Assembly: GCF_002896875.1 (NCBI RefSeq)
Contig: NZ_CP023278.1
Coordinates: forward strand, 1,860,001-1,924,000
Source: Nostoc sp. CENA543
GTDB lineage: Bacteria; Cyanobacteriota; Cyanobacteriia; Cyanobacteriales; Nostocaceae
Reading direction: 5' to 3'
Length of the DNA stretch: 64,000 bases
In this document: in pieces, positions 46,700-64,000 of the stretch
Layout: every line of letters begins with the position of its first letter
Position numbering within the stretch: the first letter of the stretch is position 1
The notes under the pieces: model-generated
Told to the model about the DNA's origin: nothing
Seen by the model: only the letters and a program-made list of their open reading frames with translations
Database searches by the model: none
Translations under genes and position numbers: made by a program

Positions 46700-47220
46700 G
46701 CCTAGAGATATATGTTGGTGAAGTACTCCGGCTCGCTTCGAGTCAAGCATATCGCTCATAGAAACGACCATCAACGTTTCGCGTCTCGTTCGCCGTTGCC
46801 TCCTTGTACAAGTACAATTTGGTCTTACACAGCGTTTCTGGTATCGCTACCTTGATCTCTTCAAGAGAGAACCCGCGCAGCTATCCGCCTTCCGCAGACA
46901 GTTTGATTACTTTTCGTCTTACTCGCCTTGGATTTACGACAATGGTCTACCAGCTAGGTTTTCAGCTTTCCCGATCTCTGCCGAGTGCATGCTTTATACC
47001 TCAAGGGTGGCCTCTTAGTCAGTCGGGTGGGTCAACAACCATCAATATTGTCTCACAAACATTGACGATTCCGACGCTCGCGGACACGGCTTAGCTACGC
47101 TATCAACCATCCCTTTCCCTAATCAACCTAACGGTTGATATCCGTCGGAGATGCTTTCGTCATCGTCCTGCTATCCATCCCTACCCGTAAGCGTTGCGGG
47201 GTAGGGACTTCCGCAGATTT
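46700..47220 (-). ncRNA. Candidate structured RNA or mobile-element remnant
   Basis: This roughly 500-bp stretch is richer in GC than the surroundings and has no credible ORF (one short plus-strand frame has no RBS or family). Read on the minus strand it contains features that recall HEARO/IscB-type RNA, including GGAGGCAACGG and several short hairpins, and it precedes a small gene in the same direction. Dispersed repeats typical of Nostoc (for example 'gcgtagctaagccgtgtccgcgagcg', in part) also occur in it. A degenerate IS remnant is an equally possible explanation. Confidence 0.25.
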
Positions 47221-47245
47221 TGTTAAATTTCACCTCGTTCTACTT

Positions 47246-50056
47246 ATGCGTTCTCCAAAACCTTATTTAACGGCTATTACTCTAATTTTGGTGATCTCAG
47301 GGGCGATCGCTAATTTACCGATATTATTCTCAACACCGCAAGTATTGGCACAAACACCACAAGACCGCAAAGCTGAAGCAGACCGATTGCTGCTGCAAGG
47401 TATTAAGCAATTTCAAACTGGTCAACTTGAAGCAGTATTACAATCTTGGCAACAAGCACTCAAAATCTACCAAGAAATCAAAGACCGTAAAGGCGAGGGT
47501 GCTGCACTTGCGAATCTTGCTAATGCTTACAAAGTTTTAAAAAACTACCCTAAAATTATTGAGTGCTATAAGCAGTATTTACCAATCGCACGAGAATCAA
47601 AAAACCGTCAAGGTGAGAGTGATGCACTTTTTAATATTGGTCTTGCCTACGGTAGCTTACAAGATTACACCAAAGCCATTGAGTATTACGAGCAAGGATT
47701 GCCAATCACAAGAGAAATTAAAGACACTCAAAATGAGTTTTACACTCTTGGAAATCTTGGTATTGCCCACCTTCAACTAAAAAACTACCGCAAAGCAATT
47801 GAATATGAACAGCAATACTTGGTGATCGCACGGAAAATCAAAGACCGTCCCAGGGAACTGCAAGGACTGAAAGCTCTTGCTGTTGCCTATCAAGGATTGT
47901 CAGACTTTCCAAAAGCCTTGGAATACTCACAGCGAGGTTTGGACATAGCAAAAGAAATAAAAGACCGGAATGGAGAGGGACAATTACAGGGACTACTCAG
48001 TATGCTCTACGCGAATCTAGGATACTACCCCAAAGCTATTGCGTCCGCGCAGCAGAGTTTAGCGATCGCTAAGGAAATTAAAATACCCGAACAGGAGGGT
48101 TATGCACTGGAAAATCTAGGTAATATCTACGTTGTATTGGGAGAGACCTCCAAAGCTGTAGAATATTATCAGCAGAGTTTAGTGATCTCTCGAAAAATCA
48201 AAAACCGTAATGGCGAGGGTACACTACTGGGTAATCTTGGCAACAACTACGCGATTTCAGGAGACTACCTCAAAGCGATTGAGTCTTATGAACAAAGATT
48301 AGCGATCGCAAGAGAAATTAAAGATGATTTAGGAGAGCTTGTTGCACTGGGGAATTTAGGCATATCCTACATGATATTAGGAAACCACCCCAAAGGTATT
48401 GAGTATTATCAGCAAGAGTTAACAAAAGCAAGGAAAATAAAAGACCGTCTCGGTGAGGGATCGGCTTTGAGTCATTTCGGTGGTGCCTACATTGATTCGG
48501 GAGAATACTCCAAAGCGATTGAGCATCTCCAGCAAGCTTTGGTGATCGCACAAGAGTTAAAAGATGCTGGCAGCAAGAAGATTGCGCTGAATAGTTTAGG
48601 GCTAGCTTTCTACAAACAAGAAAATTTGACTCTGGCAGAAAGTAATCTAATTGAGGCAATCAAACTCCAAGAGTCTCTACGTTTACGAGCAAAGGAATTA
48701 AAGGATATACAAAAGATATCGTTGTATGACCAGCAAAGAAGTTCATACGAAACTCTACAACAAGTCTTCATAGCCCAGAATAAAACTGATGCAGCCTTAG
48801 AAATATCCGAACGAGGCAGGGGACGTGCTTTTGTAGAGTTACTGACTTCTCGAATTTTCTCTAACTCCAAGGAACAATTACTCACTCCACCAACAATTGC
48901 AGAAATTAAACAAATTGCAAGATTACAAAATGCCACTTTGGTACAATATTCGATTATTAGTGATAAATTCAAAGTAGAAGGTAAGATTCAATTCAAAGAA
49001 TCTGAACTCTACATTTGGGTAATTAACTCCACAGGTGAAGTTACTTTCCGTAAAGTTGACTTGAAACCCCTGTGGCAAAAAGAAAATACAACTCTTCCAC
49101 AACTTGTTACCACCAGCCGTCAAGCGATAGGTGCAAGAGGTACAGCTTTTCGCGGTATCAATGTAACCTATAACCCCAATGCACCCAAAGCCAAAAATAA
49201 TTTAAAGCGTCTCCACGAATTATTAATCAACCCCATTGCTGACTTATTACCTAAAAATCCTAACGAAAGAGTAATTTTTATTCCTCAAAATGCATTATTC
49301 CTCGTCCCCTTCGCCGCCTTACAAGACGCAGAAAGTAAATATCTAATTGAAAAACATACTATTCTCACGTCACCATCAATTCAGGTGTTAGACTTAACCC
49401 GCAAACAAAGACAACGTTTAGGCACAAAACCCATCCAAGGGAAAGACACGCTGATTGTTGGTAATCCCACCATGCCCTTTTTCGCACCTAAAATTGATGA
49501 AACTCCCCAACAACTTACGCCTTTACCTGGTGCAGAAAAAGAAGCAACAGCAATTAGCAAATTACTCAAAACCGCACCTCTAATTGGCAACAAAGCCACA
49601 GAATCAACTGTAATCAAACGTTTACCCCAAGCACGATTTGTGCATTTAGCCACCCACGGTATATTTGATGATATTCAAGGGTTAAATAGTGCGATCGCTT
49701 TAACTCCATCGGGTCAAGATGATGGCTTATTAACAGCTTCGGAAATTCTTGATTTAAAACTGAATGCGGAATTAGTGGTGCTGAGTGCTTGCGATACCGG
49801 CAGGGGACGCATTTCTGGGGATGGGGTGATTGGGTTATCTCGTTCGTTAATTAGTGCGGGTGTCCCTAGTGTTTTAGTATCGCTGTGGGCAGTGCCAGAC
49901 GCGCCTACAGCCCGATTAATGACGCAATTTTATCAAAATCTGCAAAAAAACCCTGACAAAGCCCAAGCACTGCGTCAGGCGATGTTGACGACGATGAAAA
50001 CGAACCCGAACCCTGTTGATTGGGCGGCTTTTACTCTTATTGGAGAAGCTGAGTAG
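47246..50056 (+). CDS. Exported TPR-CHAT protease, intact dyad, largest copy
   Basis: 936 residues from ATG 47246 (MRSPKPYLTAI), chosen because the signal peptide starts here and the longer frame to 47135 runs into the structured region. Cleavage is expected near PQVLAQTPQ. About eleven TPRs precede the CHAT domain, which has His804 (FVHLATHGIFDD) and Cys849 (VVLSACDTGRG). Homologous over its length to the genes at 36193 and 40912. The gap 50057-50455 that follows has no clear gene, only low-complexity DNA. Confidence 0.93.
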   Translation: MRSPKPYLTAITLILVISGAIANLPILFSTPQVLAQTPQDRKAEADRLLLQGIKQFQTGQLEAVLQSWQQALKIYQEIKDRKGEGAALANLANAYKVLKNYPKIIECYKQYLPIARESKNRQGESDALFNIGLAYGSLQDYTKAIEYYEQGLPITREIKDTQNEFYTLGNLGIAHLQLKNYRKAIEYEQQYLVIARKIKDRPRELQGLKALAVAYQGLSDFPKALEYSQRGLDIAKEIKDRNGEGQLQGLLSMLYANLGYYPKAIASAQQSLAIAKEIKIPEQEGYALENLGNIYVVLGETSKAVEYYQQSLVISRKIKNRNGEGTLLGNLGNNYAISGDYLKAIESYEQRLAIAREIKDDLGELVALGNLGISYMILGNHPKGIEYYQQELTKARKIKDRLGEGSALSHFGGAYIDSGEYSKAIEHLQQALVIAQELKDAGSKKIALNSLGLAFYKQENLTLAESNLIEAIKLQESLRLRAKELKDIQKISLYDQQRSSYETLQQVFIAQNKTDAALEISERGRGRAFVELLTSRIFSNSKEQLLTPPTIAEIKQIARLQNATLVQYSIISDKFKVEGKIQFKESELYIWVINSTGEVTFRKVDLKPLWQKENTTLPQLVTTSRQAIGARGTAFRGINVTYNPNAPKAKNNLKRLHELLINPIADLLPKNPNERVIFIPQNALFLVPFAALQDAESKYLIEKHTILTSPSIQVLDLTRKQRQRLGTKPIQGKDTLIVGNPTMPFFAPKIDETPQQLTPLPGAEKEATAISKLLKTAPLIGNKATESTVIKRLPQARFVHLATHGIFDDIQGLNSAIALTPSGQDDGLLTASEILDLKLNAELVVLSACDTGRGRISGDGVIGLSRSLISAGVPSVLVSLWAVPDAPTARLMTQFYQNLQKNPDKAQALRQAMLTTMKTNPNPVDWAAFTLIGEAE

Positions 50057-50455
50057 TTTTTTAAATTAGCAATTTTCTCATTATGTACAAACTGCACTTT
50101 CGCAAAATAATCCTATTGCTGTGTCTATCCTTTTCAGACTTCGTAGACTTCGTATAGTCAACAATGTAAAGTTTTATATCAACATTAAACATTTCTAGTA
50201 TCTGTTAACGAAGAGGCAGAGGGGAACTGAGCTATTACCCTCTGAGTGGAGCGAAGCGGAACATGAGTATGTTTGCGGAGCGTCTTGTAGCCCCGTCTTT
50301 ACAGCACGCTTGGCTGTTTCTGCGTCTGAGCTTCTGTCTCAGCCTCTCTCCCCTGCCTCTTTTGACTCAAAAGCCTGTGATATTTTGCATAACCTCACAC
50401 GACTCAGAAATACAATCCTATGAAGCGACTTCAGCCAAGATATACGTAAAATCCT
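50057..50455. other. Gene-free intergenic region
   Basis: Short reading frames here have no Shine-Dalgarno or recognisable family. Part of it is a G-rich and C-rich low-complexity stretch near 50210-50350. It should contain the metacaspase promoter. Confidence 0.45.
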
Positions 50456-52735
50456 ATGTCTTACATCAAACGCCGCCAATTTCTGCAATTCTCTGCTTCC
50501 ACCCTCGCAACTTTGGGTTTGAGTCAGTTGGATATTATGCAGCAGGGTCATAATTTGGGTAAAGTTCTGGCTCAAAAGACAGGACGTAAACTAGCTTTAT
50601 TAGTGGGAATTAATCAATATCCTCAAAGCACAGGTTTAAAACCTCTATCTGGTTGCGTTACTGATGTGAGGTTGCAGCAAAAGTTACTCATTCACCGCTT
50701 TGGTTTTAAAGCTGAAGATGTGATCACTCTGACTAACCAACAAGCCACCCGTGAAGGTATTCTCAGCAAATTTGAACAACATCTGATTAATCAGGCTCGT
50801 CCTGGTGATGTGGTGGTGTTTCACTTTTCTGGACATGGTTCGCGCCTTTATGACAGAGATGGCGATGCACCAGATGGACTCAATAGTGCTTTAGTTCCCG
50901 TGGATGGTCGATTACCAGAAGGCTATCCATTTCAGGGGGGCTTTGTCAACCACATTATGGGGCATACACTATTTTTACTCATGTCTGCATTGAAAACCGA
51001 GAATGTCACGGTGGTGTTAGATTGTTGTCATTCTGGTGGGGGTAAACGGGGTAATTTACGTGTGCGTGCTGTTGATGATGGAGAGTTACTAAAACCCAGT
51101 CTCGAAGAATTGCTATATCAAGGTCAGTGGTTGGATAAGTTAGGAATGTCACGACAAGAATTTATCCAAAAACGTAGACAAACTGTGGCTAAAGGGGTGG
51201 TAATTGCTAGTGCTAGAAGGGAACAATTAGCGGCTGATTTACCCTTTGGAGATTTCCATGCAGGAGCGTTTACTTACCTATTAACGCAGTATATTTGGCA
51301 ACAAATTGGCAATGAACCGATCAATAGAGCGATCGCTAATGTGGGTCGCAGTACAAAAATCTTAGCTAGTCGTGAAGGCTACTATCAAGACCCAGAAATT
51401 GAGTCTAATCTCAATTCTCAAAATCCTAATCCACCCCTCTATTTTTTCCCTTTTCAAGCTATACCGGCAGAGGCGGTAATTACTCAAGTTAATAATAATC
51501 AGGTTCAGTTATGGTTGGGTGGCATTGATTCACAAAGTTTAGAAGCTTTTACTAATAATCCTCTCTTTTCAGTTGTGGATAATCAAGGTAATGAAGTTGG
51601 GTGGTTAAAGTTAGATTCCCGCCAAGGATTAGAAGGAAAAGGTACATTAGTAAATACACGCAATGGCTCAGTTAAAAATTTACAACCAGGCACTTTATTA
51701 CAAGAACGGATTCGCAGTATTCCCAATAATCCCACTTTAAAAATCGGTATTGATGAATCTCTTAATCAAAAAACTGCCCAACAAGCTATCCAATCTATGC
51801 AAGCAATTAAACGCATTGAACCTACAGCTTTAGGGAAACAGGAGGTGCAATATATTTTTGGGCAGATGACAGCAAATACATTGCAACAACTCCAGAAATT
51901 AAAAATATCTAACCTGCCAAAAGTTGGTAGTTTTGGTTTATTTTTACCCAGCCAAGACCAAATTATTCCTCAGTCTTTTGGTGAAGCAGGTGAATCGGTA
52001 ACGAATGCAGTCAAAAGGTTACAACCCAAGTTGCAATCTCTTTTAGCTGCACGGGTGGTCAAGCAAATTCTCGGTAACACTAATTCATCCAGATTGAATG
52101 TAACTGTGTCGATGAATATTGCTGATAGTAATGAATTATTAGCCGAAACTTTTCCGGTACGGGGTAATACTAAAAAGTCTACTTTCTCTACATCTGCTGC
52201 ATCTGTAAAAATCTCTGAATTTGGTTTGAGTCAACTACCTATAGGCACTAAAATTGCTTTTAAAATTCAAAATAATGAGTCTCAATCTCTTTATCTGAGC
52301 ATTTTAGTTATTGATGCAGAAGGAACGATGACGGTCATATTTCCTAATAATTGGTCAGCGTCAGAAAATGCAGCGTTAGTCGAAGCCAATCAAACACAAC
52401 TAATTCCGCAGATTGATGATGAATTTGTCTTAACTGTTTCTGAACCTTTAGGGGTTTCTGAGGCTTTAATTATTGCCAGTACCTCACCTTTAAGAACATC
52501 TCTCCAAGCATTACAAAAAATCGCTAGCCTTGCAGGAGCTAGTAATACTCGTCAACCCATTTCTACAAAGCCTGACCAAATTTTAGATGTGACAAATAAG
52601 TTACTAGATGATCTAGATACGGGAACACGTAATGCTTTAAGAGGTCAAGAAGTCACTTTACCATCAGGTGTGAGGGGAATCGATACTCAAAAACTAGCAG
52701 CAATGGCGATCGCTTTTGAAGTCGTACCCTCTTAA
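50456..52735 (+). CDS. Exported caspase-like (C14/orthocaspase) protein with DUF4384
   Basis: 759 residues. The twin-Arg-like N-terminus KRRQFLQFSASTLATLGL with VLAQ near 38 suggests export. The caspase domain (about 43-310) has His127 in VVFHFSGHGSRL and Cys191 in VVLDCCHSGGG. The C-terminal part (about 560-700) is DUF4384-like (KIAFKIQNNESQSLYLSILVID near 600). Orthocaspases cleave after Arg/Lys and are linked with stress and cell death in cyanobacteria. It follows the CHAT and subtilase genes. Confidence 0.9.
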   Translation: MSYIKRRQFLQFSASTLATLGLSQLDIMQQGHNLGKVLAQKTGRKLALLVGINQYPQSTGLKPLSGCVTDVRLQQKLLIHRFGFKAEDVITLTNQQATREGILSKFEQHLINQARPGDVVVFHFSGHGSRLYDRDGDAPDGLNSALVPVDGRLPEGYPFQGGFVNHIMGHTLFLLMSALKTENVTVVLDCCHSGGGKRGNLRVRAVDDGELLKPSLEELLYQGQWLDKLGMSRQEFIQKRRQTVAKGVVIASARREQLAADLPFGDFHAGAFTYLLTQYIWQQIGNEPINRAIANVGRSTKILASREGYYQDPEIESNLNSQNPNPPLYFFPFQAIPAEAVITQVNNNQVQLWLGGIDSQSLEAFTNNPLFSVVDNQGNEVGWLKLDSRQGLEGKGTLVNTRNGSVKNLQPGTLLQERIRSIPNNPTLKIGIDESLNQKTAQQAIQSMQAIKRIEPTALGKQEVQYIFGQMTANTLQQLQKLKISNLPKVGSFGLFLPSQDQIIPQSFGEAGESVTNAVKRLQPKLQSLLAARVVKQILGNTNSSRLNVTVSMNIADSNELLAETFPVRGNTKKSTFSTSAASVKISEFGLSQLPIGTKIAFKIQNNESQSLYLSILVIDAEGTMTVIFPNNWSASENAALVEANQTQLIPQIDDEFVLTVSEPLGVSEALIIASTSPLRTSLQALQKIASLAGASNTRQPISTKPDQILDVTNKLLDDLDTGTRNALRGQEVTLPSGVRGIDTQKLAAMAIAFEVVPS

Positions 52736-52811: not shown

Positions 52812-53411
52812 ATGGAAGCAGAAATCAAAGATGTAAATCTTCCCAATGGTCAATTATTGACACCCTTTCAACGCAAATTATTACTGAAAAATTTGACCGA
52901 AGATTTACCAGGATTATACCGTCAACGTATTCAAATTATGTTGTTAGCAGATGAAGGTAAATCACAAACCAACATCTGTCGTACCTTGGGATGCTGTCCC
53001 GCTACAGCCAGACATTGGATACATATTGCTCGGAGTGGAATGGCGCATCAATGGCAAACTGCCCCAATTGGTCGTCCTAAAGCCGTCAATGAAGAATATT
53101 TAGAGCGTTTAAAAACACTAGTTAATGATAGTCCCCGTAATTATGGTTATGCTTTTCAACGGTGGACAGCAAACTGGTTAAGTAAGCATTTAGCTAAGGA
53201 ATTCGGCTTTCAGTTGAGTGATTGTCATATCAAACGCTTACTCAAAACAATGGGTTTATCGACAAAATCTAAACCTGTTATCACCCCAGAAACTCCATCC
53301 CAAATATCTACCAATTCCCAGATTTCTATCGGTAATCTCAGTAGTGAAAGTTTGTTAAATGAGAGTGAAAGATTACCGATTCATTTCTTGAAAATTAAGA
53401 CAAATTCATAA
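52812..53411 (+). CDS. Transposase-derived HTH protein, exporter module 1
   Basis: 199 residues resembling only the DNA-binding half of IS630-type transposases: a first HTH 'EGKSQTNICRTLGCCPATARHWI' near 60 and a second winged HTH 'RNYGYAFQRWTANWLSKHLAKEF' near 115. The DDE catalytic domain is absent and the C-terminus is Ser/Thr-rich. It ends 4 bp before the exporter gene, and a 208-residue homologue precedes the other exporter at 62056. It therefore probably regulates the module, having been domesticated from a transposase. Confidence 0.8.
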   Translation: MEAEIKDVNLPNGQLLTPFQRKLLLKNLTEDLPGLYRQRIQIMLLADEGKSQTNICRTLGCCPATARHWIHIARSGMAHQWQTAPIGRPKAVNEEYLERLKTLVNDSPRNYGYAFQRWTANWLSKHLAKEFGFQLSDCHIKRLLKTMGLSTKSKPVITPETPSQISTNSQISIGNLSSESLLNESERLPIHFLKIKTNS

Positions 53412-53415
53412 AATC

Positions 53416-56130
53416 ATGTTGCATAATTCATCCATAGCAGAAGTTTCTAGGGAACTTTTGCAAAATACGCTTGGCTATTCTCTCACAGAAGCTGAATTTC
53501 AAGATATTCAGCCAAAAGTTAAATATCTAGAACCAAAAATTGGGAAGTTTTGGCAAGGAATTGATGTAGAACCAGGTATTTATATTCTGCTTGGTGGTAA
53601 GGTCAGGTTATTAGATGAAACTGGCGAATTAATCACCACATTAGAAACTGGAGGATATTTTGGCTGTTTTACTTTATTTCCCGATGCCAAATTTATACCC
53701 TATGCAGCTAGAGCTAGCGCAAATTTACAACTTTGTTTTATATCTGGTGACGTTTTATCACCCCTACTAGCTAAACATTCCCAAATCCGTGAACATTTAT
53801 GGTTACAAGCACAAACTCTCAATTCTTTATTGACTAAATCTCACATTCCTATTTCAGAAAAGCCAGAACAAATACCTGTTGTCTCTGACTCTACAACACA
53901 GATAAAGCAAGATAAAAAGATTAGCAAAGCCTACTTTCCTAACCCTAGCCAAAAAGTTAGTCATTTGTGGCAAAAAGTCACTCGACGCTATCCTTTTTTT
54001 GCTCAACAGAGTTCATCTGACTGCGGTGCAGCTTGTTTAGTAATGATTGGACGCTATTGGGGAAAGCAATTTAGTGTGAACCTTTTGCGAGAACTGGCTA
54101 ATGTTGACCGCAATGGTTCATCTCTGCGTGGGTTGACAGTAGCAGCAGAAAGTCTGGGGTTGAATACTCGTCCGGTGAAAGCTAGTTTTGAGCAGTTAGC
54201 AAAACAAAAGTTGCCTGCGATCGCCCATTGGCAAGGAAAACATTATATCGTTGTATACGAGATTACCGCCAAACAAGTGATTATTGCTGATCCTGCGATC
54301 GGTCAGCTTACTCTCTCTCATCAAGAATTCCAAGCAAACTGGACTGGATATGCGCTATTACTAGAACCAACCGCCTTATTCAAAGATGCACAAGAAAATA
54401 CCACGCCTTTTTGGCAATTCTTTGAATTAATTAAACCTCATTCTGTGGTGATGTTAGAAGTATTTATTGCTTCCGTATTTATCCAAATATTTGGACTCAT
54501 CACACCCCTATTTACACAATTAATTTTAGACAGTGTAGTACAACAGAGTTCTTATGTGACCTTGTTGGCTGTGGGGTTAGGGTTAATGATGTTTAGCCTC
54601 TTCCGCGTAGCTATGACGGGGTTACGGCAATATTTAATCGACCACACAGCCAATAAGATAAATGTCGCGTTAGTAGTAGCATTTATTCGTCACACTCTAC
54701 GCCTACCTTTGAGTTATTTTGAAACTCGTTATGTGGGGGATATTATCTCTCGTTTACAGGAGAACAATAAAATTCAACGCCTACTTTCTGGTGAAGCATT
54801 ATCCATAATCCTAGATTTATTGACTGTATTTGTCTATCTAGGGTTGATGTTTTGGTACAGTTGGCAAATGGCATTATTATCATTAATAATTGTGCCGCCA
54901 TTTTTCTTATTGGCGTTGATTGCTACACCATTTTTACAAAGAATTTCCAGAGAAATATTTGATGCTATTGCTAAAGAGAATAGTTATCTCATTGAAATTT
55001 TAACAGGCATCCGCACAATTAAATCTACATCTGTAGAACAAACAGTCCGTTGGCATTGGGAAGAGTTATTACAAAAAGAGGTCAAGAAAAATTTTGCTGG
55101 ACAAATAATTGGTAATCGCCTGCAAATTTTTAGTAATACTATTGAAGCAGTGGTATCTACAACCTTATTGTGGTACGGAGCTAGTTTAGTAATTGCTAAT
55201 CAATTATCCATTGGTCAATTAGTAGCATTTCATATGCTTTTAGGTAATATTATTAAACCTTTTCAGCGATTAACTGTACTCTGGCATCAGTTACAAGAGG
55301 TCATCATTTCAGTAGAACGTATTAACGATGTCTTAGATGCTGAGGCTGAGGAAGATTTACAAATAACAAATCGTCAATCAATCCCCCAAATTCAAGGAAA
55401 TATTTGTTTTGAAAATGTGACATTTCGCTATCATCCAGATAATGAAGTCAATATTCTGGAAAATCTCAACTTTAAAATTAAATCTGGGCAAATAGTCGCC
55501 TTAGTAGGACGTAGCGGTTCTGGTAAAACTACAATTTCTAAGCTGGCTTTAGGTTTATATCCACCTACCGACGGCAGAATTTTAATTGATGGATATGATA
55601 TTAATACTATTTCTCTACATTCTTTACGTCAGCAAGTAGGAGTAGTTGATCAAGATACTTTTTTATTCGGGAATACAATTCGAGAAAATATTGCTTTAGG
55701 AAATCCGAATGCTAGTTTATCGGAAATTAGAGAGGCTGCTAAATTAGCCGGTGCGGATGAATTTATTACAAAGTTACCTATGGGTTATGAAACCGAAATC
55801 GGGGAAGGTGGAGGGTTATTATCTGGAGGACAAAGGCAAAGAATCGCCATTGCTAGAGCTTTATTAGGTAATCCTCGCCTGTTGATTTTAGATGAAGCTA
55901 CTTCCCATCTTGATACTGAATCAGAAAGAATAATTCAGCAGAATTTAAAGAAAATTTTGCAAGGAAGAACTGCTTTAATTATTGCTCATCGTCTTTCTAC
56001 TATCAAGAGAGCGGATTTAATTTTGGTGTTAGATAAGGGGTTGTTAATTGAGAGTGGTAAACACGAGGAATTAATGGCGAAGCGTGGTCATTATTTCTAT
56101 CTCAATCAACAACAGTTAGGTGTGGAATAA
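53416..56130 (+). CDS. cNMP-like/C39 peptidase/ABC exporter
   Basis: 904 residues. N-terminal cyclic-nucleotide-binding-like beta roll (about 25-150) has FGCFTLFPDAK in place of the FGE...RAA motif, so ligand binding is doubtful. The C39 peptidase follows with Cys203 (SSDCGAACLVMI), His in KHYIVVYE and Asp in IADPAIG. Six membrane helices span about 340-630. The ATPase has Walker A GRSGSGKTT (Lys704), LSGGQRQRIAIARALL and LILDEATSHLD. C39 exporters cut after a double glycine while exporting peptides. The likely substrate is the small peptide at 60032. Confidence 0.94.
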   Translation: MLHNSSIAEVSRELLQNTLGYSLTEAEFQDIQPKVKYLEPKIGKFWQGIDVEPGIYILLGGKVRLLDETGELITTLETGGYFGCFTLFPDAKFIPYAARASANLQLCFISGDVLSPLLAKHSQIREHLWLQAQTLNSLLTKSHIPISEKPEQIPVVSDSTTQIKQDKKISKAYFPNPSQKVSHLWQKVTRRYPFFAQQSSSDCGAACLVMIGRYWGKQFSVNLLRELANVDRNGSSLRGLTVAAESLGLNTRPVKASFEQLAKQKLPAIAHWQGKHYIVVYEITAKQVIIADPAIGQLTLSHQEFQANWTGYALLLEPTALFKDAQENTTPFWQFFELIKPHSVVMLEVFIASVFIQIFGLITPLFTQLILDSVVQQSSYVTLLAVGLGLMMFSLFRVAMTGLRQYLIDHTANKINVALVVAFIRHTLRLPLSYFETRYVGDIISRLQENNKIQRLLSGEALSIILDLLTVFVYLGLMFWYSWQMALLSLIIVPPFFLLALIATPFLQRISREIFDAIAKENSYLIEILTGIRTIKSTSVEQTVRWHWEELLQKEVKKNFAGQIIGNRLQIFSNTIEAVVSTTLLWYGASLVIANQLSIGQLVAFHMLLGNIIKPFQRLTVLWHQLQEVIISVERINDVLDAEAEEDLQITNRQSIPQIQGNICFENVTFRYHPDNEVNILENLNFKIKSGQIVALVGRSGSGKTTISKLALGLYPPTDGRILIDGYDINTISLHSLRQQVGVVDQDTFLFGNTIRENIALGNPNASLSEIREAAKLAGADEFITKLPMGYETEIGEGGGLLSGGQRQRIAIARALLGNPRLLILDEATSHLDTESERIIQQNLKKILQGRTALIIAHRLSTIKRADLILVLDKGLLIESGKHEELMAKRGHYFYLNQQQLGVE

Positions 56131-56146
56131 AAATGTGAGGTAAAAT

Positions 56147-57652
56147 ATGACAGATGTAATAAATGACATAAAAAGTCAAGACAATAATCAAAATGAGTTA
56201 ACCGAAATCATCAGTCAAACAAATGCAGATTGGTCTGTTGCTACTAAAGAATTATTGGATAGCTTACCTCAAGTTTGGACGAGGGGATTACTGTATTTTT
56301 TAATATTGGTTGTTTCTTTTGTTTTACCTTGGTCAATGTTATCTAAAGTTGATGAGACAGGTACAGCTAGAGGTAGAATTGAGCCTCAAGGTAAGACAAT
56401 TAGATTAGATAGTGCTGTGTCTGGTAAAGTTACGGAAATTCGAGTTAAGGAAGGTGAGCAAGTTAAGGCCGGACAGAGTTTATTAATGTTAGATGCAGAT
56501 TTAATTAAAACAGAATTGCGGCAGATACAAGATAAATTAGAAGGACAATTAAACAGGCGATCGCAATTAAATTCCACTAAAAATCAGTTAGTAGTCGCCT
56601 TGACAACGCAAGAACAACAAAATCAATCCCAAGCTTTAGAAAAGCAAGCACAAATTGACCAAGCTAGACAAAACTTACTAGCTTTGAAAAACACTTATGA
56701 GTTGCAAACATCAGAAAAACTAGCTCAATTAAATCAGGCTAGGCAAAATTTTGAGCATAGTAAAACAGCGAGTAAATTAATGGAAAGTAGTTTGGCGATC
56801 GCGCAAAAAGAAGAAACCAGATATCGTAAACTGTATCAAGAGGGAGTCATCCCAGAAATTAACTTCGTGGAAAAGCAAGAATTAGCCAAAGAAAAGCAAC
56901 AGTTATACGAACAAAGTCAAGCAGATATTCAACAAGCCAAATTACGTTTCACAGAACAACAGAGTAGTTATGAACGAGTTGTCAAGCAAGGAAAGGCTGA
57001 TATTACTCAAGCACAGTTACGTCTCGATGAACAACAACGCAGCTACCAAACTTTAAATCGTTCTGCTAAGTTAGCCTTATTGCGAATTGAAGAACAACAA
57101 AAGAATCTGCAAACAGAAATTACCACTCTAGACGCAGAAATTACTCAAACTCAAAGACAAATAGAATCCTTAAATATTCATTTAGCACAACGGGAACTAA
57201 AAGCACCAGAAAGTGGAAATATCTTTCAATTTCCCTTTTCTCAAGTTGGTGCGGTAGTCCAACCAGGAACCATGATTGCAGAAATCGCGCCTGTTGGTGC
57301 ATCATTAATTGTGCGCGCGCAAATCGCTACTACACAAAGCGGTTTTTTGCGGAAAAATTTACCAGTCAAACTCAAATTTGATGCTTATCCTTTTCAGGAT
57401 TACGGTGTAGTAGAAGGAGAAATATTAGCTATTTCTCCTTCTACTACAGAAATTGACACTCCTACTGGTAAAGTTGCTGTTTATAACTTAGAAATCTCTT
57501 TAAAACAGCACTGTATTAAGAGTAGTAATAAGTGCATTCCTTTGCGTCCAGGTGATACAGCCACGGCTGAGGTAGTTGTACGCCAACGCCGAGTGATTGA
57601 TTTTATCCTTGATCCATTTAAGCAACTGCAAACAGGCGGTTTAAAGCTGTGA
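56147..57652 (+). CDS. HlyD-family membrane fusion protein
   Basis: 501 residues: a cytoplasmic N-terminus, one membrane helix near 48-68 (GLLYFLILVVSFVLPWSML), the lipoyl half-motif SGKVTEIRVKEGEQVKAGQ near 90, long Gln/Leu-rich coiled coils (about 130-350) and the second half-motif near 360 (RELKAPESGNIF). It is 16 bp after the exporter gene and is expected to form the periplasmic bridge of that exporter. About 25% of the residues in the coiled coil are Gln. Confidence 0.9.
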   Translation: MTDVINDIKSQDNNQNELTEIISQTNADWSVATKELLDSLPQVWTRGLLYFLILVVSFVLPWSMLSKVDETGTARGRIEPQGKTIRLDSAVSGKVTEIRVKEGEQVKAGQSLLMLDADLIKTELRQIQDKLEGQLNRRSQLNSTKNQLVVALTTQEQQNQSQALEKQAQIDQARQNLLALKNTYELQTSEKLAQLNQARQNFEHSKTASKLMESSLAIAQKEETRYRKLYQEGVIPEINFVEKQELAKEKQQLYEQSQADIQQAKLRFTEQQSSYERVVKQGKADITQAQLRLDEQQRSYQTLNRSAKLALLRIEEQQKNLQTEITTLDAEITQTQRQIESLNIHLAQRELKAPESGNIFQFPFSQVGAVVQPGTMIAEIAPVGASLIVRAQIATTQSGFLRKNLPVKLKFDAYPFQDYGVVEGEILAISPSTTEIDTPTGKVAVYNLEISLKQHCIKSSNKCIPLRPGDTATAEVVVRQRRVIDFILDPFKQLQTGGLKL

Positions 57653-57716
57653 TAATTTTTTTGACTATTGACTGTTGACTACTGACTATTGACCTACCAC
57701 ACAATATCAAAATACC

Positions 57717-58460
57717 ATGTCATACCCTATCACTATCACTAACAAAGATATCCTGCGACAAGTTAAATTGTCATGTCAAATACCTGAAATAACTCAACAG
57801 ATTATCACACGCCAAATAATTGAAAATACTGCTAAACAAGCAGCGATTAAAATTGAATCAGAAGAACTACAAAAAGCCGCAGATCAAATGCGCTTAGTGA
57901 ATAATCTGTTAAATTCGGAAGAAACTTGGCAATGGTTAACGACACATCATTTATCTCTAGATGATTTTGAAGATATTGTCTACACAAGTCTATTATCTGG
58001 GAAGTTAGCTGTTCACTTGTTCGCAGATAAAGTTGAACCCTACTTTTATGCACATCAATCAAATTATCTAGGTGCGGTGATGTATGAGGTTATCTTAGAT
58101 GATGAGGATTTAGGCTGGGAACTTTTTTATGCAATTAAAGCAGATGAGATGAGTTATTTTGATGTGGCTTACAAATATATTCAAAATACGGAGTTACGTC
58201 GTAAATGTGGATATTTAGGTTTAGTTAATCGTCAAAATCTCACGCCAGAAGTTTCTACTGCTGTTTTTGCGTCTCAACCACCGCAAATCTTAAAGCCAAT
58301 TGTGACAGCTAAAGGTGTGCATTTAATTTTCGTTGAGGAGATTGTGCAAAGACAACTAGATGATAAATTACATCAAGAAATCGCTGCACATTTATACTAT
58401 GAATGGTTAAATTTACAAAGCCTACAAGTTGAATGTAATATTCAGCTTGATGGAAGTTGA
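57717..58460 (+). CDS. Parvulin-type peptidyl-prolyl isomerase
   Basis: 247 residues. An N-terminal SurA/PrsA-like helical part (about 1-110) precedes a parvulin domain with 'ELFYAIKADEMSYFDVAYKYI' near 135, RRKCGYLGLVNRQNL near 165 and 'KPIVTAKGVHLIFVEEI' near 200. No signal peptide is evident, so it probably acts in the cytoplasm. PpiC-like proteins are common in peptide-export gene clusters of cyanobacteria, and this one follows HlyD by 64 bp on the same strand. Confidence 0.83.
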   Translation: MSYPITITNKDILRQVKLSCQIPEITQQIITRQIIENTAKQAAIKIESEELQKAADQMRLVNNLLNSEETWQWLTTHHLSLDDFEDIVYTSLLSGKLAVHLFADKVEPYFYAHQSNYLGAVMYEVILDDEDLGWELFYAIKADEMSYFDVAYKYIQNTELRRKCGYLGLVNRQNLTPEVSTAVFASQPPQILKPIVTAKGVHLIFVEEIVQRQLDDKLHQEIAAHLYYEWLNLQSLQVECNIQLDGS

Positions 58461-58516: not shown

Positions 58517-59869
58517 CTAAATCATCACAGGTTCTCCCGCTTTTTTCAACGCAGAAGATGCTTCTGGGATGTAAGAGGTTCTGGGTTGACTGGCTATAGC
58601 TTTTTGCTGTTCTCGTAATTCTGATAGACGAATATTACTCCAATTTAGCAAAGCAGAATTACCCAAACGTGGAGCTAAATTATATAGTCTTTCCACCGCA
58701 GAAATAGCCAGTGAATCCATCTGAATAGAAGCTAAATAACAATCACAAGCTATATCTAATTCACCTAATTTTTCGTAACATTGACCAGCCATAAACCAAG
58801 CGATCGCAGTTCCTGGTGGCCCTAGTCTAGCAGCTGAACGATACATTTGAGCAGCTTCTACAATTTTACCCTGTTTGATGAAGATTTCCCCCAATTGTAG
58901 ACGATATCGAGAATAGAATGGTTCCATTTCCACTATCTTTTTAGCCCTTGCTTCAGCTAAGTCAATATCACCTAACCATAATGCTTCTTTAGTACGACTT
59001 TCAAGCACAGTAATTAAATTTTCATGTGCGGTAATTCGCTCTATTTCATTCTTATATGCGTGAGTTAAACTCTCTGCTAAAGATTCACATAAATCCATTT
59101 CCCGCACTACGCCTTCCTTATCTTTTTGCAGCAGAGGTAAAAATACAACTGCACGATAGTAGATACTAGTAACTTGTTTATAGCTAAAATCATCCAAAGA
59201 AGATGCAAGATTTTTTAGTTCCTGTGTTGCTAGGGAACTCCAAAATTGAGTAGCGTTTAAATCACGGAATGTCTTAGCAGACAAAGCTACTAACTCTATA
59301 GCCGCATTCAAGCGAATTTTGCTCCCTGGAGGTGTATGATTAGCAATAATCTCAAATTCCTGAAGATTCTCCATACTACCACCGTCAGACCTAGCCATTA
59401 AACCAGACATCGCCCGACAATAAGCTATTTTGGCACGGTTTAAACAATCAGCAATATCTGAATTAGAAAACTTTGGTGCATATTCTAGAACAGCATGATG
59501 TAAACATAAATTTGATAGGAGATATAAAACTCGTAGCTGAGTAGTAAGTGAGAGTTCTTGATAATGAATTAAGTAGTTACACAAATTCTGCCATCGCTCA
59601 TTCCTTAACTCATCAGCTAATTCTAATGGGTTGTTTATCTGGTATTGAAATAAACCAGATTCGCGAATTAAAGATTCCCGAAATGAAATGGGATGAATAA
59701 TAGTAACTGGGTTGATTAATATCGATTTTTCCGAGCAATTTAAATCTGCGATGAGGTTATTATAGCTGAACTCTATCGCTTTGATATGTAATGCACCTGC
59801 GTTATACTTTCCTAAGTCGAAATAGGGGCGATTAACCCAAGTAGTAAATGAATTATCTAGCAAAGACAT
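58517..59869 (-). CDS. TPR-containing protein of the peptide cluster
   Basis: 450 residues. An N-terminal part without known domain (about 1-130) is followed by helical repeats; clear TPR-like units appear near 290-400 ('VEMEPFYSRYRLQLGEIFIKQGKIVEAAQMYRSAARLGPPG'). No signal or membrane segment. Convergent with the parvulin gene and followed on its own strand by nothing but repeats. It diverges from nothing obvious, but its start lies 163 bp from the peptide gene, read in the same direction, so the peptide gene is upstream of it. Confidence 0.75.
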   Translation of the reverse strand: MSLLDNSFTTWVNRPYFDLGKYNAGALHIKAIEFSYNNLIADLNCSEKSILINPVTIIHPISFRESLIRESGLFQYQINNPLELADELRNERWQNLCNYLIHYQELSLTTQLRVLYLLSNLCLHHAVLEYAPKFSNSDIADCLNRAKIAYCRAMSGLMARSDGGSMENLQEFEIIANHTPPGSKIRLNAAIELVALSAKTFRDLNATQFWSSLATQELKNLASSLDDFSYKQVTSIYYRAVVFLPLLQKDKEGVVREMDLCESLAESLTHAYKNEIERITAHENLITVLESRTKEALWLGDIDLAEARAKKIVEMEPFYSRYRLQLGEIFIKQGKIVEAAQMYRSAARLGPPGTAIAWFMAGQCYEKLGELDIACDCYLASIQMDSLAISAVERLYNLAPRLGNSALLNWSNIRLSELREQQKAIASQPRTSYIPEASSALKKAGEPVMI

Positions 59870-60031
59870 AAACTTTTATCTGATTAATTACAAATTTCGG
59901 TGCAAAAAACCACAGTAACACTATGAAAACATTTTAATAGTGCTACTGTAGTAAATAAATTTCGTTAAATAAAACAGCTACTTGATGTTAGTTACTATAG
60001 AAATAACTATCAAGTATTTTGTTTTATCAAA

Positions 60032-60187
60032 CTAGCATTCTTGTACTTGCCATTTGCAAGCAGCTCCACCACGCAAGCTGATGAAAGCATGAATAGCTTC
60101 AGAGTTACCTTGTTCAGCTTCTTTTTTGAGGTCAACCATTTCTGTTTGGTTAGCGATGGTGAGTTTGTTGATTTTAATTTCAGCCAT
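60032..60187 (-). CDS. Double-glycine leader peptide gene (candidate RiPP/bacteriocin precursor)
   Basis: 51 codons from ATG 60185-60187 to TAG 60032-60034, with GAGGT about 10 nt upstream. The first 41 residues look like a C39 leader (MAEIKINKL at the start, LKKEAEQGNSEAIHAFI in the helix) and end in LRGG. The remaining core is AACKWQVQEC, with two cysteines. The peptide lies between the two C39-exporter modules. It would be cut after Gly41 on export and could form a disulfide. It was missed by simple ORF length filters. No modifying enzyme other than the parvulin is visible. Confidence 0.75.
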   Translation of the reverse strand: MAEIKINKLTIANQTEMVDLKKEAEQGNSEAIHAFISLRGGAACKWQVQEC

Positions 60188-61271
60188 TGAACTATTACCT
60201 CGTTAATGAATTTGTTATGTTTGGAAGTTGACTTTTGCTTGTCTCTTCCTGTGAATATAATTGCCGATTTTTCTATTAATTTCAATTATTGTTTGACTGT
60301 AAAACGTACATAAATCTTACATTTTCTATCCAAAATTTCCCTAGAAAATCGATGAGTTTTAAAATTTTTGCTAGGAAGTGAATCAAAAATAAAGCAAAAT
60401 TAATTTACTTCAGCTATCTTTACTTACATTCCCATCTCTATAGGACTCATATTTGATTTTTGAATAGATACGTAGGGGAGGCAAATTGCAGTGTGAATTT
60501 TCCTCTTACAATATTGCTGTTGTGTTAGCAGTGAGAGTACAGCAACTACCACCAAGGCCTTTGGTGCGTTACGGCTTACGTCTAACACACCCTACTGGCG
60601 TGACACGATTAAAATGTTGCAAAAAATTATAGGTTGAGTTGACGTAAGGAAACCCAACACCAATATCCGTGTTGAGTTTTCGAGATAACCAGTGTGCTAA
60701 GTGCAGAATTTACTTTTTACTTTTTACTCTTTACTCAGCACTCACTACTCAGCACTCGAATATCTAGACTTAAAACAATGATTTTTCAACCGTGATTATG
60801 ACTAAATAATTATTTATATCAGAATAAATTTAATCAGTAAAAAATATTCTAGTGAATCATTGGTTGATAATAAACTTTTCTTAAAGATATTATGAAATTA
60901 TCATGAACTTAAATTTTTTTGGATAAAAACTATTGACTAGTTGCCAGAAAATTTCTAAAAAAGTAGCAGTAGGTTAAATGACTAAATCGAGAGACTGTCA
61001 CTTTTGAGTTAACTTCTGCCAGGTGAATTAAAAATTTGACTCTTAACTGTCGAATTAGTGACGATTGATTTACTAGTATTGCCATATCGCTAGATATCTC
61101 TCTGATTTGTAGTTACACTCTGATTAACTTCAACATTCACTACGTGAATCTTTACCTACATTCCAGGTTTTAACAACATCCTAATAGCAAAATCATCATC
61201 AGACTTGAGGTAGATTTTTCAGATTTCAACCAATTTTTTTGATGAAAATGAATGATTTTGCCTAAATCTAC
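60188..61271. other. Long intergenic region with dispersed repeats
   Basis: Almost 1.1 kb without a convincing gene. Seen here: short tandem repeats 'tttactttttactttttact' (60710-60735, in part) and 'actcagcactc' (about 60733-60760), and a common dispersed sequence with 'ggtgcgttacgg...taacacaccctac' near 60562-60595. I looked for further double-glycine peptides on both strands and found none. Confidence 0.55.
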
Positions 61272-61898
61272 ATGAGACATGACCTGGTAGTAATTATGTC
61301 TGAATATTTTCGTCAAGAACAACTTATTGAACACTATGACTTGCACGAGAGCAAGTTTTTAACTCCCTTCCAACGTAAAGCCTTGCTCAAAAATTTACAA
61401 ACTAATTTACAGCCAGAATATCGTAAACGTATTGAAATCATTCTACTGGCAGATATGGGAACATCACAAAGTCAAATTTGTGAAAAACTTGGTTGTTCTC
61501 AAGAAATGGCGCGCTACTGGATTGGCATAGCAGAAGCAGGTTTAGCACACAAATGGAATGAGCGTCCCATTGGTAGACCGAAAATTGTCAACAATCAATA
61601 CATAGACAGATTGAAAGAATTAGTTAGTAATAGTCCCCGTGATTATGGCTACGCTTTCACCAATTGGACAGCCCAATGGTTAAGCAAACATTTAGCCTCA
61701 GAATTGGGAATTAGTATTAGCGATCGCCATATCAATCGCCTCCTAAAACAAATGGGACTTTCAACTAAACCAAAGAATAAACCCCATCTAGAAAATGAAC
61801 TAATTCAGGACAATAATATCTCAATTTCTGACTTATCAACTCAATCGGAACCTCATATTAATTGGTCATTTAATGTGGGGATAGAAGCTAGAGGATAA
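61272..61898 (+). CDS. Transposase-derived HTH protein, exporter module 2
   Basis: 208 residues, homologous over its length to the protein at 52812: 'KFLTPFQRKALLKNLQTNLQPEYRKRIEIILLADMGTSQSQICEKLGC' and RDYGYAFTNWTAQWLSKHLASEL. An alternative start is the ATG at 61296. Same absence of a DDE domain. It precedes exporter 2 by 157 nt, a gap that has G-rich heptamers, whereas the first pair is only 4 nt apart. Confidence 0.8.
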   Translation: MRHDLVVIMSEYFRQEQLIEHYDLHESKFLTPFQRKALLKNLQTNLQPEYRKRIEIILLADMGTSQSQICEKLGCSQEMARYWIGIAEAGLAHKWNERPIGRPKIVNNQYIDRLKELVSNSPRDYGYAFTNWTAQWLSKHLASELGISISDRHINRLLKQMGLSTKPKNKPHLENELIQDNNISISDLSTQSEPHINWSFNVGIEARG

Positions 61899-62055: not shown

Positions 62056-64000
62056 ATGTCGTCAGGTTTTTCTCAACAATATTTAGCCCAACAACTCACC
62101 CAGACCTTGGGTGAGTCGCTGTCAGAAAAGGAAATAACAGACTGCATCCAAAGATTAGAAATAATTGCACCGCCGATAGCTAAACAGTTTTGGCAAGCTG
62201 GGACAGATGGGGCGGGAATATATATTATCCTTGGGGGAAAGGTGAGATTACTGGATAGTTCGTTGAACTTAATCACCACTCTCTCTACAGGCTCATCTTT
62301 TGGTCAATTAACTTTATTTCCTGAACAAGAATTTAGTCCTTATGTGGCTAGGGCTTCTGTGAATTTAAAACTAGCTTACTTGCCACAATCAACTTTACAA
62401 CCACTGATTAGTGAACATCTTAGCATTGGCGATCGCCTGAAAAAACAAGCCGAAACTTGGGATTTATTGGTTTTTTGTAGCCAAAATTCCCTATTACCAG
62501 AAAACGGTTCTGTGGATGATGCTTTAAGAGCGTTATTTTTATTTGATCGTCATACTTTAGCTAGTGGTTCACTTCCTCCGTCACTTTTGCAAGATGTAAA
62601 ACTATGGGTATTGCAGCGAGGAGAATTAACAGATGCACAAGGACACAAGTTTACCCCTGGAACAATTACCACATCTGGAAACGTAGGTAATTGGCAAGTT
62701 ACACAATCAGCAGTTATCTATGCTCTCACAAATAACCATTGGCAAATAGCCCTAGAATATTGGCCGCAGTTAAGAGAATTTCCAGAATCTGGTGCTAGTA
62801 TTGAAAGTAACCCCTCCCCATCCCCGGTTGTAGAAACGCGTTCTGTCGCGTCTCTACAACCCCCCCCTCAAAACAAACCCAAGTCCCGACGCACCTATTT
62901 TCCCAGTCCCAAAGTGAAAGTCGGACATTGGTGGGGACGCATTACTCAACGCTATCCCTTATTTGAACAACAAAGTGCGGCGGACTGTGGCGCAGCCTGT
63001 TTAGTGATGATTAGCCGCTACTGGGGTAAAAATTTCAGTGTAAATCGCATCCGAGATTTAGCTAACGTCAGACGTAGCGGTGCATCCCTCAAAAGTTTAA
63101 CAGCCGCCGCCGAAGCCCTTGGTTTTACCACCCGTCCAGTCAAAGCTAGTTTGGATAAATTAGCACAACAAACCCTCCCTGCGATCGCCCACTGGGAAAA
63201 TAAGCACTACATCGTAGTTTACGCCATCACCAAAAAACACGTTATTGTCTGCGATCCCGCCATCGGACAACGCACCCTCAGCACTTCCGAATTCAAAACC
63301 GGTTGGACTGGTTACGCGTTGTTACTGCAACCTACTAGCCAACTCCAACAAGCGGAAGAAGCTAGTACCCCATTCTGGCAAATGTTTGAGTTAGTCAGAC
63401 CCCACTCACGGGTACTACTAGAGGTGTTTGCAGCTTCGGTGTTAATTCAGTTGTTGGGACTAATTACACCCTTATTTACCCAGTTATTGCTAGATAGAGT
63501 AATTGTCCAAGGTAGCACGCTCACATTAAACGCTGTCGGTTTAGGTTTGGTGATTTTTGGCTTATTTCGCGTCGTCGTCAATGGACTCAGACAATATTTA
63601 CTAGACCATACAGCCAACCGTATTAGTGTATCTCTACTGGTAGGTTTTATTAAACATACCTTCCGTTTACCGTTAGCGTTTTTTGAATCGCGTTATGTCG
63701 GCGATATCGTCTCCCGCGTCCAAGAAAACCAAAAAATCCAGCGTTTTTTGACTGGGGAAGCCCTATCAATCATCTTGGATTTACTGACGGTGTTTGTTTA
63801 CGTGGGGCTAATGTTTTGGTACAGTGCGGCAATGGCATTATTCAGTTTAGCCATTGTCCCACCATTCGTATTATTAGCAGTTGTCGCCACACCATTTTTG
63901 CGCCGCATCAGCCGAGAAGTTTTCAGTGCTACCGCCAACGAGAACAGTTACTTAATTCAATCCTTGACGGGGATTCGTTCAATTCGTTCAATGGCCATTG
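62056..64000 (+). CDS. Second cNMP-like/C39 peptidase/ABC exporter, C-terminus cut
   Basis: Open from ATG 62056 to the window end (648 codons). The N-terminal part holds a cNMP-like beta roll (about 40-140, ILGGKVRLLDSSLNL, FGQLTLFPEQE) and an extra ~100 residues that look like a second degenerate roll (VLQRGELTDAQGHKFTPG). The C39 domain has Cys311 (AADCGAACLVMI), KHYIVVYAI and CDPAIGQ. Membrane helices begin near 460. The ATPase lies beyond the window. The linker near 255-270 is partly encoded by a dispersed palindrome. It is a paralogue of the gene at 53416. Confidence 0.93.
   Translation, partial: MSSGFSQQYLAQQLTQTLGESLSEKEITDCIQRLEIIAPPIAKQFWQAGTDGAGIYIILGGKVRLLDSSLNLITTLSTGSSFGQLTLFPEQEFSPYVARASVNLKLAYLPQSTLQPLISEHLSIGDRLKKQAETWDLLVFCSQNSLLPENGSVDDALRALFLFDRHTLASGSLPPSLLQDVKLWVLQRGELTDAQGHKFTPGTITTSGNVGNWQVTQSAVIYALTNNHWQIALEYWPQLREFPESGASIESNPSPSPVVETRSVASLQPPPQNKPKSRRTYFPSPKVKVGHWWGRITQRYPLFEQQSAADCGAACLVMISRYWGKNFSVNRIRDLANVRRSGASLKSLTAAAEALGFTTRPVKASLDKLAQQTLPAIAHWENKHYIVVYAITKKHVIVCDPAIGQRTLSTSEFKTGWTGYALLLQPTSQLQQAEEASTPFWQMFELVRPHSRVLLEVFAASVLIQLLGLITPLFTQLLLDRVIVQGSTLTLNAVGLGLVIFGLFRVVVNGLRQYLLDHTANRISVSLLVGFIKHTFRLPLAFFESRYVGDIVSRVQENQKIQRFLTGEALSIILDLLTVFVYVGLMFWYSAAMALFSLAIVPPFVLLAVVATPFLRRISREVFSATANENSYLIQSLTGIRSIRSMAI
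62827..62860 (+). repeat. Dispersed palindrome inside exporter 2 coding sequence
   Basis: GTTGTAGAAACGCG...CGCGTCTCTACAAC forms imperfect 14-bp arms around a short loop, related to the elements at 2593 and 22226. It lies in frame between the cNMP-like region and the C39 domain and encodes part of a Pro/Ser/Val-rich linker. No homologue of this stretch is in exporter 1. Confidence 0.75.

Follow-up and report, generated by a model that had tools for sequence, protein, structure and literature searches.

A double-glycine precursor peptide and its constantly adjacent TPR protein gene in cyanobacteria: a candidate pair of exported peptide and core-recognising partner

Gene clusters assigned to groups I and II by Wang et al. 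(2011; PMC3140520) combine a long-type C39 ABC protein carrying an N-terminal nucleotide-binding domain with an HlyD protein, a SurA-like rotamase and double-glycine (GG) precursors of variable core; group I clusters contain on average 0.35 precursors, which are 45–164 aa long. GG leaders are marked by hydrophobic residues at positions -4, -7, -12 and -15 (PMC7018657). In Synechococcus elongatus, the small GG proteins EbfG1-4 leave the cell via the C39 exporter PteB, as proposed below for the peptide described here; they differ from it by their mature parts of 6–7 kDa and their role in biofilms, and the main text of that study contains no mention of TPR proteins (PMC4997328). HetC of Nostoc PCC 7120 is a cNMP-C39 ABC exporter with demonstrated N-terminal protease activity; it is not known to have a substrate, and the surroundings of hetC revealed no GG gene (PMC10986499). 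RRNPP pairs of Bacillota consist of a small propeptide gene beside a single TPR gene of 250–500 aa (PMC10075063). In the pneumococcal rtg system (RtgR/RtgS with the PCAT RtgAB), one locus encodes a regulator of the Rgg type, a pheromone that contains Trp and an ABC exporter with a peptidase domain, an arrangement similar to that reported here; the difference is that the rtg pheromone is distinct from the GG peptides, being SHP-like with a Trp-X-Trp motif, and that the GG peptides are the cargo (PMC7018657).

The locus analysed here lies in a stretch of 64,000 nucleotides from Nostoc sp. CENA543, hereafter the window. A long-type C39 ABC protein with an N-terminal CAP_ED domain, an HlyD protein and a SurA-like rotamase occur together in it, the combination that characterizes groups I and II of Wang et al., and GG precursors with variable cores are likewise shared; the window differs in pairing the precursor with a TPR gene, a protein class named neither as TPR nor as tetratricopeptide in the main text of that survey (PMC3140520). 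Some of the precursors may be listed in its supplementary tables. The literature matches listed contained no report of a TPR protein together with a GG precursor in cyanobacteria. The adjacency of a propeptide and a TPR protein of 250–500 aa, by which RRNPP pairs are searched, was found at all 18 loci collected. In contrast to RRNPP systems, this one has a GG leader, a C39 exporter, a Gram-negative host and a TPR protein without an HTH domain, and of the PDB matches (60 of 70 listed) none carries the label of an RRNPP receptor. Membership in the RRNPP family is not claimed because this sequence test failed.

The precursor gene (60032..60187, minus strand) begins with an ATG preceded by GAGG and encodes 51 aa, namely the leader MAEIKINKLTIANQTEMVDLKKEAEQGNSEAIHAFISLRGG (residues 1–41, ending in LRGG) and the ten-residue core AACKWQVQEC, exactly as a previous sequence-only reading of this DNA had described it. 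That reading also regarded the frame with its ribosome-binding site as a real gene, and relatives, ribosome-binding sites and dN/dS values bear this out. The gene is present as a single copy in its own genome, and relatives were found in 8 further genomes when 145 genomes of the family were searched; Nostoc sp. CMAA1605 also has one, 96% identical (genome G762 is very probably the same strain and both were counted once). Altogether, 20 precursors from 18 loci were collected, G387 contributing three. GAGG, GGAG or AGGA lies within 20 nt of the ATG in each of the 20, and leader dN was lower than dS in all ten pairs tested (ratio 0.10–0.54). The relatives retain the start codon, the ribosome-binding site, the GG and a leader some 41 residues in length, across genomes of three families (f1, f8, f15), and the core past the GG is variable. 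Both glycines are invariant in the 15 aligned precursors; they are also present in all 20 collected ones, but there the GG was part of the selection. The conserved GG site beside a varying core and the homologues next to C39 exporters, both suggested earlier as checks, were thus found. Judged by eye, the window leader has hydrophobic residues at -4 (L) and -7 (F), with E at -12 and G at -15 in place of the canonical anchors; leaders of genus g112 have V at -4 and L at -7, those of G225 and G445 satisfy all four positions, and that of G450 fails with S and A at -4 and -7. Neither Pfam, NCBIfam nor PADLOC contains a known family for the window precursor, and the 15 aligned precursors gave one chance-level NCBIfam match each in three cases (best E 0.033). 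An alternative 91-aa frame on the same DNA (60010–60285) was discarded since the homologues match the 51-aa frame instead, and two weak Rahnella records (E 0.2) from a search for the precursor on plasmids were judged to be chance. A spurious frame or decayed gene might be suspected from the extreme shortness of the precursor and from the broken HTH gene ahead of the exporter in CMAA1605; given the homology, ribosome-binding sites, dN/dS values and the maintenance of leader, start and GG in three families, such an artefact is extremely improbable.

The cores comprise 7–20 residues. Trp occurs in 18 of the 20, or 16 of 18 distinct cores, and Cys in 10 of the 20; the leaders contain neither residue in 839 positions. 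The chance product for the 16 Trp-bearing cores alone amounts to 1.3e-14, with related cores treated as independent. The two Trp-less cores belong to the TPR-distal copies among the three of G387, and the precursor proximal to the TPR gene carries Trp at all 18 loci. A precursor profile built from 15 of the 20 precursors matched 13 of 388 genomes of the order; the TPR gene is present in 11 of these and absent from G403 and G251, whose orphan precursors have the same leader type and the cores FTGMRIAPNTKSLSL and AQRFRAPELLF, respectively, both devoid of Trp. The distribution of Trp, 18/18 in TPR-proximal precursors versus 0/2 in orphans, corresponds to 1 in 190 by a hand calculation in which the loci are not independent.

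The gene directly downstream of the precursor (58517..59869, minus strand) encodes a TPR protein of 450 aa, which is its constant partner: at 18 of 18 loci (window, CMAA1605, G116, G001, G102, G031, G136, G144, G113, G098, G387, G334, G383, G364, G342, G450, G225 and G445) the TPR gene is immediately preceded by a co-oriented precursor gene, 136–463 nt away. This partnership, in which the TPR protein appears to track the core, was overlooked in the sequence-only reading. Two loci are informative with respect to what the TPR protein pairs with. G225 and G445 have canonical leaders (ITELSFEAMETIAGG, IVELSFEAMETLSGG) and a C39 ABC protein of 716–717 aa, only 34–36% identical to the exporter of the window (exporter a, see below), together with TPR proteins of the same family (53 and 48% identity to that of the window) and the Trp-containing cores GRCCWHLN and RPAPKKWKLL. 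Conversely, G403 combines a long-type exporter module and a precursor without any TPR gene. The exchange of leader and exporter in G225 and G445 and the lack of the TPR gene in G403 therefore suggest that the TPR protein goes with the core rather than with leader or exporter. The same observations bear on the proposal that the TPR protein assists the C39 exporter, either as an export chaperone or as an accessory protein. In G450, G225 and G445 the TPR gene separates the precursor from the exporter gene, which would agree with such a function, as would the best NCBIfam match of the protein, an LcrH/SycD-type secretion chaperone far below the cut-off. However, G403 manages with exporter and precursor alone, the TPR protein occurs with two distant exporter types, and a ten-residue core would hardly need a chaperone, which renders this proposal improbable.

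The TPR proteins of the family are 438–452 aa long. Above cut-off, Pfam detects only TPRs in the window protein, near residues 299–385, and the PDB profile matches (60 of 70 listed) fall at residues 293–405 and are designed TPRs, OGT and other TPR proteins. Residues 1–290 matched nothing in the PDB at E 10; against Pfam they gave two families at E 0.04, through one of 11 members each, which was rejected as a family assignment. PADLOC matches of the TPR and HTH proteins were weak only, and a role in defence was rejected. The TPR gene is rare. It was detected in 14 of 388 genomes of the order, one of them (G382) with a mere fragment near a transposase-like frame (by eye) that was left out of the locus counts; a profile from 16 of the 18 proteins (E 1e-25) recovered 8 of 386 genomes of the phylum and 6 of 50 genomes of family f8, all previously found. 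These tallies are lower bounds, as four g27 genomes with the precursor were not reported in the order draw. Outside the cyanobacteria, relatives are encoded on two Streptomyces plasmids (30% identity over the full length, near-identical to each other) and a Kitasatospora plasmid (26%); the genes, at L050:11983-13278 and L051:9512-10735, respectively, are annotated as hypothetical, and that of Kitasatospora is followed by a membrane-like protein (by eye) and an MFS transporter. The gene table for these plasmids, which is incomplete, lists no C39 gene in the vicinity of the relatives, and inspection of their upstream DNA revealed no convincing GG precursor; thus the TPR family is wider than the present system.

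Over ten cyanobacterial and two actinomycete sequences, 22 columns of the TPR protein are invariant, including R64, R239, E290, S291 and C364. Such residues might point to a RiPP-like maturation, in which the TPR protein, as a scaffold or enzyme directed at the core, would bring about a modification of Trp, Lys or Cys prior to export. The residue preceding Trp, which is K or C for 13 of the 18 Trp of the distinct cores, the two Trp-less orphan precursors lacking a TPR gene, and the gene order precursor-hairpin-gene are compatible with this scenario. On the other hand, no enzyme domain was found in the TPR protein with Pfam and NCBIfam, nor in residues 1–290 searched on their own. Leader-guided enzymes are normally conserved while the cores vary; here, the leader type is changeable and the TPR gene is more variable than that of the exporter in most pairs of genus g112 (see below). 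We consider maturation unlikely.

The exporter module associated with the precursor starts with an HTH protein that has similarity to the N-terminal part of IS630 transposases (52812..53411, plus strand), directly ahead of exporter a, a C39 peptidase ABC exporter of 904 aa with Cys203 (53416..56130, plus) whose relatives accompany this precursor elsewhere, and continues with an HlyD-type adaptor (56147..57652, plus) and a parvulin/SurA-like protein (57717..58460, plus). On the other side of the precursor, a second HTH protein of the same kind (61272..61898, plus) precedes exporter b, a C39 ABC exporter with a cNMP domain (62056..63999, plus) that runs beyond the window end; both are neighbours and probably not dedicated to the peptide. 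In the genome, exporter b is complete with 1018 aa and followed by its own HlyD and parvulin. The C39 peptidases previously assigned to both flanking ABC proteins are indeed equipped with Cys and His, and Cys311 of exporter b holds provided that translation starts at the ATG at 62056. The cNMP domain is detected by Pfam in exporter b only, exporter a being similar by eye. The earlier proposal of one system with two modules stands for the first module (52812–58460) including the linkage of HlyD and parvulin, and fails for the second. Exporter b belongs by size to a longer class of about 1010–1060 aa present in 13 of 13 genomes of the genus, irrespective of the peptide, which occurs in four of them, and just two of the 18 loci, those of the window and of CMAA1605, have it beside the peptide. 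Relatives of exporter a were found at 76–100% identity in the four peptide-bearing genomes of the genus, a small gap to other paralogues, which reach 75%. A C39 ABC gene lies within the fetched stretch at 16 of the 18 loci, truncated in two cases where the stretch ends; none was seen in G001 over about 10 kb to each side, nor in G383, whose 3.2-kb contig holds the parvulin only. A first module of the same kind (HTH, exporter a, HlyD, parvulin) recurs at the other long-type loci.

Several further observations concern the surroundings of these modules. HTH proteins resembling the IS630 N-terminus without the catalytic part accompany long-type C39 genes, with a match at 11 of 18 loci, and are possibly domesticated regulators. 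In CMAA1605, the HTH gene ahead of exporter a is split into two frames (L010:16776-17374), and in G098 the HlyD gene of the module is interrupted by transposase-like frames (L018:16616-19306; by eye). TPR-CHAT-like and caspase-like proteins (by eye) adjoin the exporter module in the window (47135–52735) and also in CMAA1605.

The spacer between precursor and TPR gene contains a stem-loop (59909..59952, minus strand), followed in the window by a T run and resembling a terminator or attenuator. Stems that match CCACAGTG..CACTGTGG or vary slightly from this type are present in the spacer at 12 of 18 loci, seven of which were recognized via the pattern of the 5' arm and the others (G102, G136 and three g112 loci) by eye. 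When the 16-pair helix of the window was projected onto the 10 of 18 spacers that were aligned, 74.5% of the cells were paired versus 30.6–49.6% after sliding. Two-sided changes were found in 10 pairs, a number that 29 of 500 shuffles also reached (shuffled mean 7.0); for the covariation score, 2 of 500 did so. The count of further pair types was equalled in 183 of 500 shuffles and hence lends no support. The best hairpin ahead of a T-rich stretch beats all ten shuffles at 10 of the 18 loci and not at the other 8, a clear T run after a CCACAGTG-type stem is restricted to the window, and a scan for consensus terminators did not list the window stem-loop. Two sub-threshold Rfam matches, one at E 0.21 and another at E 0.56 that covers the stem-loop, were judged to be chance. 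The stem-loop may serve to set a high ratio of peptide to TPR protein.

The divergence of the TPR protein can be followed best in genus g112, from which four genomes are available. Their leader DNA is 93–96% identical, and the cores, 24–63 nt long, align poorly (38–74%). At the protein level, identities amount to 85–94% for the TPR protein, 96–99.8% for HlyD, 96–98.8% for the C39 protein (partial in G387) and 92.6–99.6% for the parvulin. In five of six pairs, dN is higher for the TPR gene than for any of HlyD, parvulin and C39, and the same is true of dS in four of six. Differences are concentrated in the N-terminal part, 80 of 87 variable residues lying within residues 1–325 (dN 0.036–0.107 versus 0.007–0.028 in the C-terminal part). 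With an omega of 0.20–0.31 for the TPR gene, this divergence is by itself not positive selection. As dS is also raised, omega low, and the spacer and downstream DNA likewise strongly different between most g112 loci, rearrangement or old alleles may be the cause.

Duplicated precursors were observed at two loci. In G387 (L034:6772-9385), three tandem copies are spaced 1229 bp apart. A comparison of two of them over 1229 nt gave 8 differences: four fall within the initial 24 nt, possibly at the start of the repeat, and the remaining four, each of which alters a residue, within the core. The third copy is more different. In G364, a second copy with a truncated leader and the end CCWCYYMQM (by eye) follows just downstream of the intact gene at L036, 10871-11029 (minus strand), as if tandem copies had recombined.

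A variable core combined with a diverging partner would also be expected for a bacteriocin that inhibits relatives of the producer, with the cytoplasmic TPR protein acting as immunity protein by binding the core. The sporadic occurrence (4 of 13 genomes of the genus), the single co-oriented gene after the precursor and the description of this exporter class as bacteriocin clusters (PMC3140520) fit such a function. In the cyanobacteria read, each of the 18 intact TPR genes is accompanied by a precursor, although immunity genes often occur as orphans; beside the three actinomycete relatives, in contrast, no precursor is visible. Moreover, peptides of 7–20 residues, as found here, are short for pore formers, and TPR-type immunity proteins of 450 aa are unusual. 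Immunity is thus rather unlikely in our estimation; nonetheless it and core-directed maturation are close rivals of a receptor function. The order of a precursor and one downstream gene suits bacteriocin and immunity protein, or RiPP precursor and maturase, equally as well as signal and receptor.

The sequences show the gene, its GG site, the variable Trp-containing core, the fixed pairing and the exchange of exporter and leader and, for most genome pairs within one genus, a TPR gene that has diverged beyond the adjacent exporter genes. A TPR partner that recognizes the core is probably the best account of pairing, exchange and divergence. Based on these features we propose the following scenario. 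The ABC exporter encoded nearby, in the window exporter a, would use its C39 domain to cut the precursor after the GG, and a peptide of 7–20 residues, usually with Trp and often with Cys (here AACKWQVQEC), would be exported; cleavage and export by exporter a are suggested because of its family membership. The co-oriented TPR gene behind the precursor would provide a cytoplasmic protein binding the core, which might act as receptor after re-uptake of the peptide in the manner of the RRNPP receptors of Bacillota, both forming a pherotype pair. Speaking against this scenario are the absence of Trp from two of the three G387 cores, the window leader without anchors at -12 and -15, the lack of an HTH domain and of a listed RRNPP match for the TPR protein, and the actinomycete relatives beside which no C39 gene is annotated. 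The receptor function is favoured since RRNPP systems likewise combine a TPR protein with an adjacent short, variable propeptide, and an exported peptide with a core-recognising cytoplasmic TPR receptor is the reading we tentatively prefer, at somewhat less than even confidence. With yet more reserve, we suggest a signal-receptor pair of RRNPP logic in Gram-negative cyanobacteria, consisting of a C39-exported hypervariable Trp pheromone and a co-diversifying TPR receptor, with leader and exporter being replaceable.

RRNPP-type signalling via TPR receptors has been described from Bacillota and their viruses, to which the survey was confined (PMC10075063). The cyanobacterial pair would possibly represent a kind of signalling known mainly from Gram-positive bacteria, and offers a small testable module of a short, probably exported peptide and a TPR protein in cyanobacteria. 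To our knowledge, few cargos of this cyanobacterial C39 exporter class have a tested role. Even if the TPR protein served immunity or maturation, the pair would supply a substrate and a partner for this class of exporters.
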